NCBI GenBank assembly: GCA_945861265.1
Contig: CAMAUC010000001.1
Coordinates: forward strand, 209,789 to 273,788
Source of the DNA: Rhizobium sp. Q54
GTDB lineage: Bacteria > Pseudomonadota > Alphaproteobacteria > Rhizobiales > Xanthobacteraceae
DNA length: 64,000 nt
Direction: 5' to 3'
Positions 37,489 to 40,669 of the stretch are shown here, piece after piece; within the stretch, counting starts at the first letter, position 1; every line of letters starts with the position of its first letter. The notes beneath the pieces were generated by a model that was given only the letters and a program-made list of their open reading frames with translations, made no database searches and was not told the origin of the DNA. The position numbers and the translations under genes are program-made.

Positions 37489-38745
37489 ATGACACGATCG
37501 AACCGGCCCGATCATATCCGCCTCACCTCGCATCCGGCGCCAGGCGGCAAATTGCGTTTTCCGATTCACTGGGGCGCACTGACCGCGCGCGAACGCGGGC
37601 CGGTGATTGGCACAGTTTCGCGGCCCGGCGATCGTAATGTCATCGGCACGCATGGCGGCTCTTATGCGCTGTATCGCGCGCTGGCGGTATCGTCCGGCGC
37701 GCTCGATCCGATCCGTCGCCCCGATCTCACCAATACCTACCCGGCCGCCACTATCGGGCCCTTCGCACAGTGGAACGACCCGAAGCGTATCGTCTCGCTC
37801 GATCCGTGGGGCCATTTGGCCGCCGATAGTTTCAAGGACGAAATCGCCGAAGGCATCGATATCCGGCCGAGCATTGCCATCACCAAGGCGCGGCTCGATC
37901 TGCACGAAATGCAGGACGCGATCCGCTTCGGCCGCATCAAGGTCGATAATGACATTGTGCATGCCAATGGCAGCGTCGGCGTCACCAAGATCGCCGTCGA
38001 TCCGGTCTGGTATCTGCCCGGCATCGCCGAGCGCTTCAACACGACAGAAAACGCGCTGCGCCGCGTTCTGTTCGAGCAGACCGCCGGCATGTTTCCCGAA
38101 CTGGTGACGCGGCCGGACCTTCAGGTGTTTCTGCCGCCGATCGGCGGCATAACAGTATATATGTTCGGCGACCCGACCAAACTCAGCAATTCCGCGACTA
38201 AAATCACCTGCCGCGTCCACGACGAATGTAACGGTTCTGATGTGTTCGGCTCGGACATCTGTACCTGCCGGCCCTACCTCATTCACGGCATCGAGGAATG
38301 CGCACGCGGCGCGCAGGAAGGCGGCCTCGGCATCATTGTCTATAATCGCAAAGAAGGCCGAGCGCTCGGCGAGGTCACCAAATTCCTGGTCTACAACGCC
38401 CGCAAGCGCCAGGAAGGCGGCGACGCCGCCTCTGCCTATTTTGAGCGCACCGAGTGCGTCGCTGGTGTGCAGGACGCCCGTTTCCAGCAATTGATGCCCG
38501 ATGTCATCAACTGGCTCGGTCTCAAGCGCCTCGACCGTTTCGTCTCAATGAGCGACATGAAATACAACGCGCTGGTCAACCAGGGTGTCGAGATCGTCGA
38601 GCGCGTCGCTATCCCGGACTATCTCGTGCCGGCCGACGCCCATGTCGAGATCGCCGCCAAGAAGGCCGCCGGCTATTACTCGCCGGAACCGCCCAAGCCG
38701 GAAGACCTGTCGGATTCGGTCGGCCGTGGCCTCGACAAATATTGA
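37489..38745 (+). CDS. URC1-like GTP cyclohydrolase II family protein
   Basis: 418 residues. The C-terminal part is GTP cyclohydrolase II-like: zinc ligands in the C-x10-C-x-C pattern (ECNGSDVFGSDICTC), then YNRKEGRALGEV equivalent to the guanine/active-site region. About 180 extra N-terminal residues and the absence of other riboflavin genes distinguish it from RibA. In Lachancea kluyveri, URC1 is a cyclohydrolase II-like protein needed for uracil catabolism. Here it is followed by a DUF1688 (URC4-like) gene and a uracil phosphoribosyltransferase gene, the set known from the yeast URC pathway. It probably opens the ring of a uracil-derived nucleotide. No clear ribosome site. Confidence 0.87.
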   Translation: MTRSNRPDHIRLTSHPAPGGKLRFPIHWGALTARERGPVIGTVSRPGDRNVIGTHGGSYALYRALAVSSGALDPIRRPDLTNTYPAATIGPFAQWNDPKRIVSLDPWGHLAADSFKDEIAEGIDIRPSIAITKARLDLHEMQDAIRFGRIKVDNDIVHANGSVGVTKIAVDPVWYLPGIAERFNTTENALRRVLFEQTAGMFPELVTRPDLQVFLPPIGGITVYMFGDPTKLSNSATKITCRVHDECNGSDVFGSDICTCRPYLIHGIEECARGAQEGGLGIIVYNRKEGRALGEVTKFLVYNARKRQEGGDAASAYFERTECVAGVQDARFQQLMPDVINWLGLKRLDRFVSMSDMKYNALVNQGVEIVERVAIPDYLVPADAHVEIAAKKAAGYYSPEPPKPEDLSDSVGRGLDKY

Positions 38746-38794
38746 GCGAACCTGTGAGCGAGACTTTGAACGATACTTTACACGAACCTTGCGC

Positions 38795-40030
38795 ATGAAT
38801 CCCGAAGCGGCCGCGGCATTTTCCCTTCTCAGCGCCGAGGCCGTCCGCACGCGCGCGCAACAGATGCTTTTGCTCGGGCTAAGCGATAAACTACCGAACT
38901 TCCGCGTCGATCTCGCTCAACTCGACGCCACGGCCGATCGCGTGATTGCCATCACAAGGCAGAACTATCCCTCGCTCGATATTCCGTTTCATTCGCGCTG
39001 GCGGCATTTTGTCGTTGATGGCCATGATCGCTTCGCGGCAATCGCCAAGGCAGCCGCCTTCCCGGATGCCGCCGCCCGCGCCCGCGCCGAATTCGACCTC
39101 GCTATCGTCAGCGTCTTCCTCGATGCCGGTGCCGGCCCGCAGTGGCGTTATGCCGATCCGGAAAGTGGACGGCGCATCGGCCGTTCGGAAGGACTGGCGC
39201 TGGCCAGCCTCGACATGTTCATGCGTGGTGCGTTTTCCGCCGATCCATCGCGCCCATTGCGTGTCGACGCCGCGGTGCTGGCGCATTTAAGCGCCGATCA
39301 GTTGGCGCAGGGCTTTCAGGTGACAGCGGACAATCCGCTGGTCGGTCTCGAAGGCCGCGCCGCTCTGCTGCGCCGGCTCGGAGCATTGATTGCCGAAAGC
39401 CCCGGAGTGTTTGCCCAGAATGACAGCGCGCGGCCCGGCGGGCTGTTCGATCATCTCGCCGCGCTCGCCGAAGATAATACTATTGCCGCGCCAGACATCC
39501 TGGCCGAACTGCTGCACGAACTCGGGCCGATCTGGCCATCGCGCATTTCACTCGGTGGCATTCCGCTCGGCGATTGCTGGCGACATGCATCGCTGCAGAC
39601 GTCCGACGCCACAAACGGGCTCGTCCCGTTGCACAAACTGTCGCAGTGGCTGGCCTATTCGCTCATCGAGCCGCTGCAACGCGGCGGCGTTACAGTCGCC
39701 GACATCGATGGCCTTACCGGCCTTGCCGAATACCGCAACGGCGGATTATTCGTCGATGCGGGTGTGTTGAACGTGCGCGATCCCGGCCAACTTGCTCGCT
39801 CGCACGATGCCGGCTCCGAACTCGTGGTCGAATGGCGCGCGCTGACCGTTGCCTTGCTCGATCGCCTCGCCGCAACCGTCCGCGAAAGATTGGACATGGA
39901 CGCCGTCGCCTTGCCGCTGGCAAAAATTCTTGAAGGCGGCACCTGGGCGGCCGGCCGCGCCATCGCCCTTGAGAAGCGGCCGGACGGCACGCCACCGATA
40001 AACGTCGTCAGCGACGGCACGGTTTTTTAG
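38795..40030 (+). CDS. URC4-like DUF1688 protein
   Basis: 411 residues. MNPEAAAAFSLLSAEAVRTR, GLSDKLPNFRVDLAQLDATA and the middle SRWRHFVVDGHDRFAAIA match the DUF1688 family, whose yeast member URC4 is required for uracil catabolism; the biochemical step is not assigned in what I know. C-terminal EYRNGGLFVDAGVLNVRD and VEWRALTVALLDRLA are also typical. It begins 49 bases after the URC1-like gene and ends 9 bases before the UPRT gene, so the three are one operon. ATG without a clear ribosome site. Confidence 0.88.
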   Translation: MNPEAAAAFSLLSAEAVRTRAQQMLLLGLSDKLPNFRVDLAQLDATADRVIAITRQNYPSLDIPFHSRWRHFVVDGHDRFAAIAKAAAFPDAAARARAEFDLAIVSVFLDAGAGPQWRYADPESGRRIGRSEGLALASLDMFMRGAFSADPSRPLRVDAAVLAHLSADQLAQGFQVTADNPLVGLEGRAALLRRLGALIAESPGVFAQNDSARPGGLFDHLAALAEDNTIAAPDILAELLHELGPIWPSRISLGGIPLGDCWRHASLQTSDATNGLVPLHKLSQWLAYSLIEPLQRGGVTVADIDGLTGLAEYRNGGLFVDAGVLNVRDPGQLARSHDAGSELVVEWRALTVALLDRLAATVRERLDMDAVALPLAKILEGGTWAAGRAIALEKRPDGTPPINVVSDGTVF

Positions 40031-40039
40031 GAGATAATT

Positions 40040-40669
40040 ATGGAAGGCGTCACCGTCGTCGACCATCCGCTGGTTCAGCACAAGCTGACCTTGATCCGCG
40101 ACAAGAACCTGTCGACCAAATCGTTCCGCGAATTGCTGAGCGAAATCGGCATGCTGCTCTGCTACGAGGTGACGCGCGATCTGCCGCTGGAATTGGTGGA
40201 GATCGAGACGCCGCTGGCGCGCATGAAATCCCCGGTCCTTGCCGGCAAGAAACTGGTCTTCGCGCCGATCCTGCGCGCCGGACTGACTTTCGCCGAAGGC
40301 ATGCTCGACCTCGTGCCCGCGGCGCGCATCGCGCATATCGGCCTTTACCGGGAGCCGGAAACCTTCGCCGCTGTCGAATACTTTTTCAAAGCGCCCTCCG
40401 ACATCGCCGAACGGCTGGTCATCGTGATCGTGCCTGTGCTTGCTACCGCCAACACCGCGGTTGCCGCCGTTGACCGCTTGAAGGAGCATGGCGCGAAGGA
40501 AATCCGCGTCGTGTGTCTGGTCGCAGCACCCGAGGGCATCGAGCGCCTGCGCGGCATTCACCCGGATGTGCGCATCTGGACAGCCGCCATCGACGATGGC
40601 CTGAACGAACAAGCCTTTATTGTCCCGGGCCTTGGCGACGCCGGCGACCGCGCCTATGGGACGAAATAG
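40040..40669 (+). CDS. Uracil phosphoribosyltransferase-like protein (URC6/Upp type)
   Basis: 209 residues, standard UPRT length. It starts MEGVTVVDHPLVQHKLTLIR, has the family's RDKNLSTKSFRELLSEIGML and LVFAPILRAGLTFAEGML, and ends with the uracil-binding block IVPGLGDAGDRAYGTK. It would convert uracil plus PRPP to UMP. However, the PRPP loop, normally DPMLATGGS, reads VPVLATANTA here, losing the aspartate and both glycines. It may be specialised for the URC route or have altered activity. GGAGATAATT ribosome site before the ATG. Confidence 0.88.
   Translation: MEGVTVVDHPLVQHKLTLIRDKNLSTKSFRELLSEIGMLLCYEVTRDLPLELVEIETPLARMKSPVLAGKKLVFAPILRAGLTFAEGMLDLVPAARIAHIGLYREPETFAAVEYFFKAPSDIAERLVIVIVPVLATANTAVAAVDRLKEHGAKEIRVVCLVAAPEGIERLRGIHPDVRIWTAAIDDGLNEQAFIVPGLGDAGDRAYGTK

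Follow-up and report, generated by a model that had tools for sequence, protein, structure and literature searches.

The window analysed here is a stretch of 64,000 nucleotides from Rhizobium sp. Q54 (GCA_945861265.1, contig CAMAUC010000001.1, positions 209,789 to 273,788 of the forward strand). At its centre of interest lies a triplet of genes, urc1-urc4-upp, whose products belong to the same three families as URC1, URC4 and URC6 of the yeast Lachancea kluyveri, namely GTP cyclohydrolase II-like, DUF1688 and uracil phosphoribosyltransferase (UPRT). The first-pass annotation had described these genes in this order as a bacterial counterpart of the yeast URC uracil degradation set. The order holds, on one strand, and the genes and leader features are the following:

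37309..37336, + strand: promoter-like site TTGCAC-N16-TATACT, putative, upstream of urc1 (pattern recurrence in leaders)
37426..37447, + strand: urc1 leader hairpin GGCCCGTC-N6-GGCGGGCC (conservation across urc1 upstream regions)
37489..38745, + strand: URC1, GTP cyclohydrolase II-like, UTP-cyclohydrolase orthologue by sequence (PRK07198, 7eev/7ej3 match, cysteines)
38795..40030, + strand: URC4 (DUF1688), predicted Qng1-fold N-glycosidase (Pfam, structure model, Foldseek/VIA, profile alignment)
40040..40669, + strand: UPRT, gene upp (Pfam/NCBIfam profile matches)

Two samples were used to assess this arrangement. Among related loci, of which the best 80 of at least 571 confirmed were kept for comparison, urc1 adjoins the DUF1688 gene in all 79 with more than 1.2 kb upstream, and upp adjoins it in all 76 with more than 0.9 kb downstream. 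Of 299 genomes drawn evenly from the phylum, 18 carry DUF1688 (13 of 154 genera); urc1 lies next to it in 18/18 and upp in 15/18. One of the three upp misses is a contig end (L091) and two are real within about 1.5 kb (L088, L094). The triplet order is thus beyond chance. URC1, URC4 and UPRT occur together in the window and its relatives, and their identification as orthologues of the URC set stands. Compared with yeast, the window genes form one bacterial operon without URC3/URC5 urea amidolyase alongside; a urease alpha domain and an allophanate hydrolase over its cut-off are encoded elsewhere in the genome.

URC1 and UPRT

URC1 is recognized in Pfam by GTP_CH_N (263.6 bits) and GTP_cyclohydro2 (48.4 bits), and in NCBIfam by PRK07198 (737.6 bits, cut-off 403). 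Its nearest solved relatives are 7eev and 7ej3, matched at 578.4 bits with 63% identity over 395 positions, and their PDB titles read 'Structure of UTP cyclohydrolase' and 'UTP cyclohydrolase'. No difference of kind from these enzymes was seen, and the same activity is predicted for the window protein. GTP cyclohydrolase II uses C-x10-C-x-C cysteines for zinc, and the cysteines of this pattern in URC1 (C247, C258 and C260) are invariant across 17 aligned sequences. The structure model of URC1 had a mean predicted local distance difference test (pLDDT) score of 50.8; its fold was not used, only the titles and identity of the top matches. The structural paper on UTP cyclohydrolase is reportedly Zhang 2021, in ACS Catal. 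On sequence grounds, URC1 is an orthologue of UTP cyclohydrolase (UrcA), with a full-length match to the solved enzymes. UrcA hydrolyses UTP in two steps, according to a review (PMC9499338).

The first-pass annotation had named riboflavin synthesis by the product starting at 37489 as one of the outcomes that would speak against its proposal. URC1 as a GTP cyclohydrolase II supplying the riboflavin precursor was rejected: NCBIfam does label PRK07198 'GTP cyclohydrolase II' and the depositors of 7eev give their molecule that name, but URC1 falls far under the cut-offs of RibA models (e.g. 56 vs 148 and 46.4 vs 205.85) and its gene keeps company with urc4 throughout the draw, and the role is very unlikely because its closest matches among solved structures bear UTP cyclohydrolase in their titles and two further GTP_cyclohydro2 proteins (182.9 and 97.1 bits) are encoded in the same genome.

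Members of the UPRT family convert uracil and phosphoribosyl pyrophosphate (PRPP) to uridine monophosphate (UMP). The window UPRT scores 241.5 bits on its profile. No other UPRT of this 95.7%-complete assembly exceeds the Pfam cut-off, so that this one would serve both salvage and breakdown.

URC4 and the Qng1 fold

The DUF1688 profile matches URC4 at 495.9 bits. The longest open reading frame (ORF) begins at 38585, and relatives, mostly of 410-413 residues, favour the ATG at 38795, which gives a protein of 411. A PDB sequence search with URC4 gave no Qng1, and fold and profile comparison were therefore used. The structure model (pLDDT 92.9) matched Qng1, the queuosine-5'-phosphate N-glycosylase of the DUF2419 family, in both Foldseek and VIA, and the Qng1 fold spans most of the protein. 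In a profile alignment run with controls, K281 of URC4 corresponds to K199 of Qng1 and E312 to D231; K199 and D231 probably belong to the active site of Qng1. The lysine is present in all 18 URC4 and all 121 Qng1 sequences compared, whereas the acidic position is Glu in 18/18 URC4 and Asp in 121/121 Qng1. Two stretches, TxxxA[ED]Y and VExRAxT, are common to both families. URC4 thus shares with Qng1 the predicted fold, the lysine and two sequence stretches, but differs by its Glu, an identity of about 20%, some 90 additional residues, scores below the Pfam cut-off and the company of uracil genes. The model and alignment lead us to predict that URC4 is a Qng1-like N-glycosidase, which would work like Qng1 without being classed as one, because the Asp at D231 is a Glu.

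What such an enzyme would cleave is suggested by yeast. According to PMC7530994, URC1 and URC6 convert uracil to 3-hydroxypropionate and ribosylurea by steps that are uncharacterized, and URC4 converts ribosylurea to urea. We consider it likely that the bacterial triplet degrades uracil at the level of nucleotides, with URC4 as a predicted Qng1-like N-glycosidase that would release urea from ribosylurea, probably the 5'-phosphate form, and leave a ribose sugar. In the proposed route, UPRT would join uracil to PRPP and general kinases would carry the resulting UMP to UTP. URC1 would then open the ring by a two-step hydrolysis that releases a three-carbon piece and keeps urea attached to the ribose, as the yeast products suggest. 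The K281/E312 pair of URC4, to judge from fold and residues, would cleave the urea-ribose bond, and the urease encoded elsewhere could turn urea into ammonia.

Ribosylurea-5'-phosphate is the substrate we infer because UPRT and UTP cyclohydrolase use nucleotides and because a member of the Qng1 fold, 7u91, holds a nucleoside 5'-monophosphate. It is also conceivable, if rather unlikely, that URC4 is a glycosidase acting on unphosphorylated ribosylurea or another nucleoside-like compound. The yeast intermediate is given simply as ribosylurea in PMC7530994, and Qng1 has also been solved with the unphosphorylated nucleoside queuosine (7u1o); against this, the partners of URC4 act on nucleotides and its Qng1 relatives carry the name of 5'-phosphate glycosylases.

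Several observations weigh against a Qng1-like glycosidase acting on the 5'-phosphate. The catalytic Asp of Qng1 is replaced by Glu. The window URC4 stays under the Pfam Q_salvage (PF10343) cut-off, with 17.4 vs 25 bits, and the PDB sequence search was silent on Qng1, as noted; one URC4 relative scores 25.3 bits on Q_salvage. E346, which aligns with E269 of Qng1, is Gly in 3 of the 18 URC4 sequences, the non-fungal set on which the residue counts rest. Since 7u1o holds an unphosphorylated nucleoside, the fold is no guide to whether the substrate carries a phosphate. Moreover, the substrate of UrcA is a triphosphate and the one proposed for URC4 a monophosphate, with a hypothetical conversion step between them, and the urease match is one domain of one subunit at a contig end. 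A Q_salvage search over the 299 phylum genomes gave no match, but its controls were silent too, so that it is uninformative on absence.

Literature searches aimed at the Qng1-like reading, covering few subscription journals, turned up nothing that connects URC4/DUF1688 with Qng1. The bacterial URC genes and a solved UTP cyclohydrolase are already known, and database names such as 'URC4/urg3 family protein' are already attached to relatives. In the URC pathway, urea release is currently assigned to a 'protein of unknown function' (DUF1688). The predicted fold, residue pair and proposed substrate make the assignment testable by one enzyme assay. It suggests a route by which a cell could recover the ribose of its uracil nucleotides as well as the nitrogen of the urea, and it would annotate many genomes because DUF1688 is scattered over the phylum.

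The urc1 leader

The leader of urc1 carries a hairpin, GGCCCGTC-loop-GGCGGGCC, that a strict pattern finds in 73 of 97 urc1 upstream regions and a looser one in 76. The 24 regions without it include eight Bradyrhizobium loci with a second upp before urc1, and also more distant loci from 10 of the 17 other genomes of the draw. Fully exact copies number 60 in the 80 loci and the window taken together; no source has more than one, and each lies on the urc1 strand immediately before urc1. The pattern is found once in the window (0.01 expected) and once in the whole genome, and six of seven genomes of the same family have a copy adjacent to urc1. It is not specific to urc1: within the order, 63 of 199 genomes match, mostly away from known urc1 genes, and a backward control also matches in many. 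In a search of 26 sources with a hairpin model, L089, the window, L017 and L018 scored at E ≤0.0039, while L076 and, on the other strand, L056 gave weak matches. Ten genera further away (L087, L088, L092, L094, L095 and L099-L103) gave none, which makes this a family-level element.

Among 71 distinct cases, stem position 7 is U-G in 64, C-G in four and U-A in three, and loop length is 5 or 6 bases in 68 of them, 8 in two and 20 in one. RNAalifold gives 8 pairs and no two-sided change; the stem is thus unproven by covariation, since two-sided changes are missing and position 7 is the only one to vary much. The U-G pair and the variable loop are nevertheless easier to reconcile with an RNA hairpin than with a DNA operator. 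For an outer stem, whose register differs between lineages, a register-free test on 36 sequences favoured the native flanks, with a mean of -8.16 vs -6.88 (standard deviation, sd, 0.31), a value that none of 1000 re-pairings reached, kinship uncorrected. In the closest relatives the hairpin is nested in a wider inverted repeat (window 37362-37486), with TTTAAAACC before it and GGTTTTAAA after it, just before the urc1 start; this repeat was not seen in the aligned Bradyrhizobium loci. No Rfam leader family reached its gathering score at the urc1 leader; the best in the window was ROSE_2 with 18.6 vs 65 bits, and six relatives gave transfer RNAs only.

A serious competitor, to which we give about one chance in three, is that the hairpin merely serves as an operator in the DNA or terminates the preceding gene, and is no RNA control element. 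The nearly invariant stem sequence without two-sided change speaks for it, as does a terminator scan of the window, whose single site is this hairpin (0.4 sites in shuffles, sd 0.7). However, the copy in L021 is not scored as a terminator by the same scan, the hairpin stays by urc1 whatever gene precedes, the U-G pair is kept on the urc1 strand in most cases, and the loop length varies (5, 6, 8 or 20 bases).

A promoter-like pattern, TTG-N15..19-TATA[CT][TA], is present in 51 of the 73 hairpin-bearing leaders; a stricter scan gave no sigma-70 site at the urc1 leader of the window or in L021. Conservation of these elements suggests that the operon would be driven by its own promoter and leader hairpin and not by the neighbouring LysR gene. 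In that case the hairpin would offer a direct handle on the control of the URC operon. The most far-reaching form of our proposal combines both lines. URC4/DUF1688 would open a second branch within the Qng1 fold, as an N-glycosidase that relies on glutamate and acts on ribosylurea-5'-phosphate; a DNA-glycosylase-like fold would thereby provide the urea-releasing step of uracil catabolism at the nucleotide level, and in this bacterial family the operon would be switched by its own leader RNA hairpin, not by LysR. Taken as a whole, we put this forward tentatively.

LysR and the neighbouring AtzD operon

Upstream of the URC genes lie a LysR gene and a divergent operon (30037-36253) encoding an ATP-binding cassette (ABC) importer, a short-chain dehydrogenase (SDR), an amidohydrolase and an AtzD-family protein:

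36320..37261, + strand: LysR-family regulator (profile matches, co-occurrence)
35084..36253, - strand: NMT1-type binding protein of the ABC importer (profile match)
34213..35007, - strand: SDR (generic SDR models)
32735..34216, - strand: amidohydrolase, hydantoinase/allantoinase-like (profiles, solved-structure match)
31905..32720, - strand: ABC transporter ATPase, start approximate (profile match, relatives)
31132..31965, - strand: ABC transporter permease, start approximate (profile match, relatives)
30037..31128, - strand: AtzD/TrzD-family ring-opening amidohydrolase, cyanuric-acid-hydrolase-like (profiles, bit scores)

The first-pass annotation had joined these genes and the triplet into one 10-kb pyrimidine island under LysR control, with the URC route and a barbiturate-type ring opening in tandem. 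The genes do neighbour each other, but a single LysR regulon is not supported. Neighbour homologues were counted at >60% identity in the best 80 of at least 571 loci. Of the 57 with full upstream sequence, 9 have LysR together with the ABC operon, 48 lack both and none has just one of the two, whereas URC is present in all. LysR thus most likely controls the ABC operon, to which it is divergent, and was rejected as a general URC regulator.

The barbiturase part of the claim is weakened. The 30037-31128 protein does belong to the AtzD/TrzD/barbiturase family and matches it over its full length, but it lies outside the URC operon and is much nearer to cyanuric acid hydrolase (486.7 bits, vs 248.1 for barbiturase), also passing the NCBIfam cut-off for cyanuric acid amidohydrolase (550.1 vs 360 bits). 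AtzD-family genes are commoner with URC, in 6/18 URC genomes vs 5/281 others (Fisher 7.6e-6, uncorrected for kinship), and one stands in the flanks of 10 of the best 80 loci. Of the six genomes with both, only that of the window has them within 10 kb; in one they are 50 kb apart and in four on different contigs. A joint island is therefore quite improbable, and a link by lifestyle, through the use of ring ureides, is plausible.

Within 10-kb flanks of the best 80 loci, a close AtzD copy (87% and 81%) stands beside the ABC operon only in L008 and L015, and more distant relatives (40-50%) flank URC in eight loci of Bradyrhizobium or Tardiphaga. In L029, L041, L056, L061 and L082 a second UPRT (68-69%, opposite strand) and an AtzD relative (49-50%) precede urc1, a separate association of a ring-opening hydrolase with URC. 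In L019 (2222-7386), near URC, an AtzD relative is accompanied by genes for hydantoinases A and B and for an NMT1-type ABC importer. A second AtzD-family gene of the genome (contig 1, 99095-100165, 459.9 bits) lies outside the window, some 140 kb away from the first.

For the other genes of the operon, the best solved match of the amidohydrolase is the L-hydantoinase 1gkr (312.2 bits), and a malonic-semialdehyde-reductase role was considered for the SDR, which matched generic SDR models only. A formamidase-like (FmdA_AmdA) gene lies beside atzD (28896-29873); relatives of it occur near URC in L008, L014, L018 and L075, the L014 copy directly upstream of urc1. Elsewhere in the window, two ORFs at 23717-27518 look by eye like KdpB and KdpA of the potassium pump, and a tripartite ATP-independent periplasmic (TRAP) transporter with glyoxalase-fold dioxygenase-like, GntR and FAD_binding_3 genes (44059-50208) resembles, by eye, an aromatic-compound catabolic cluster.
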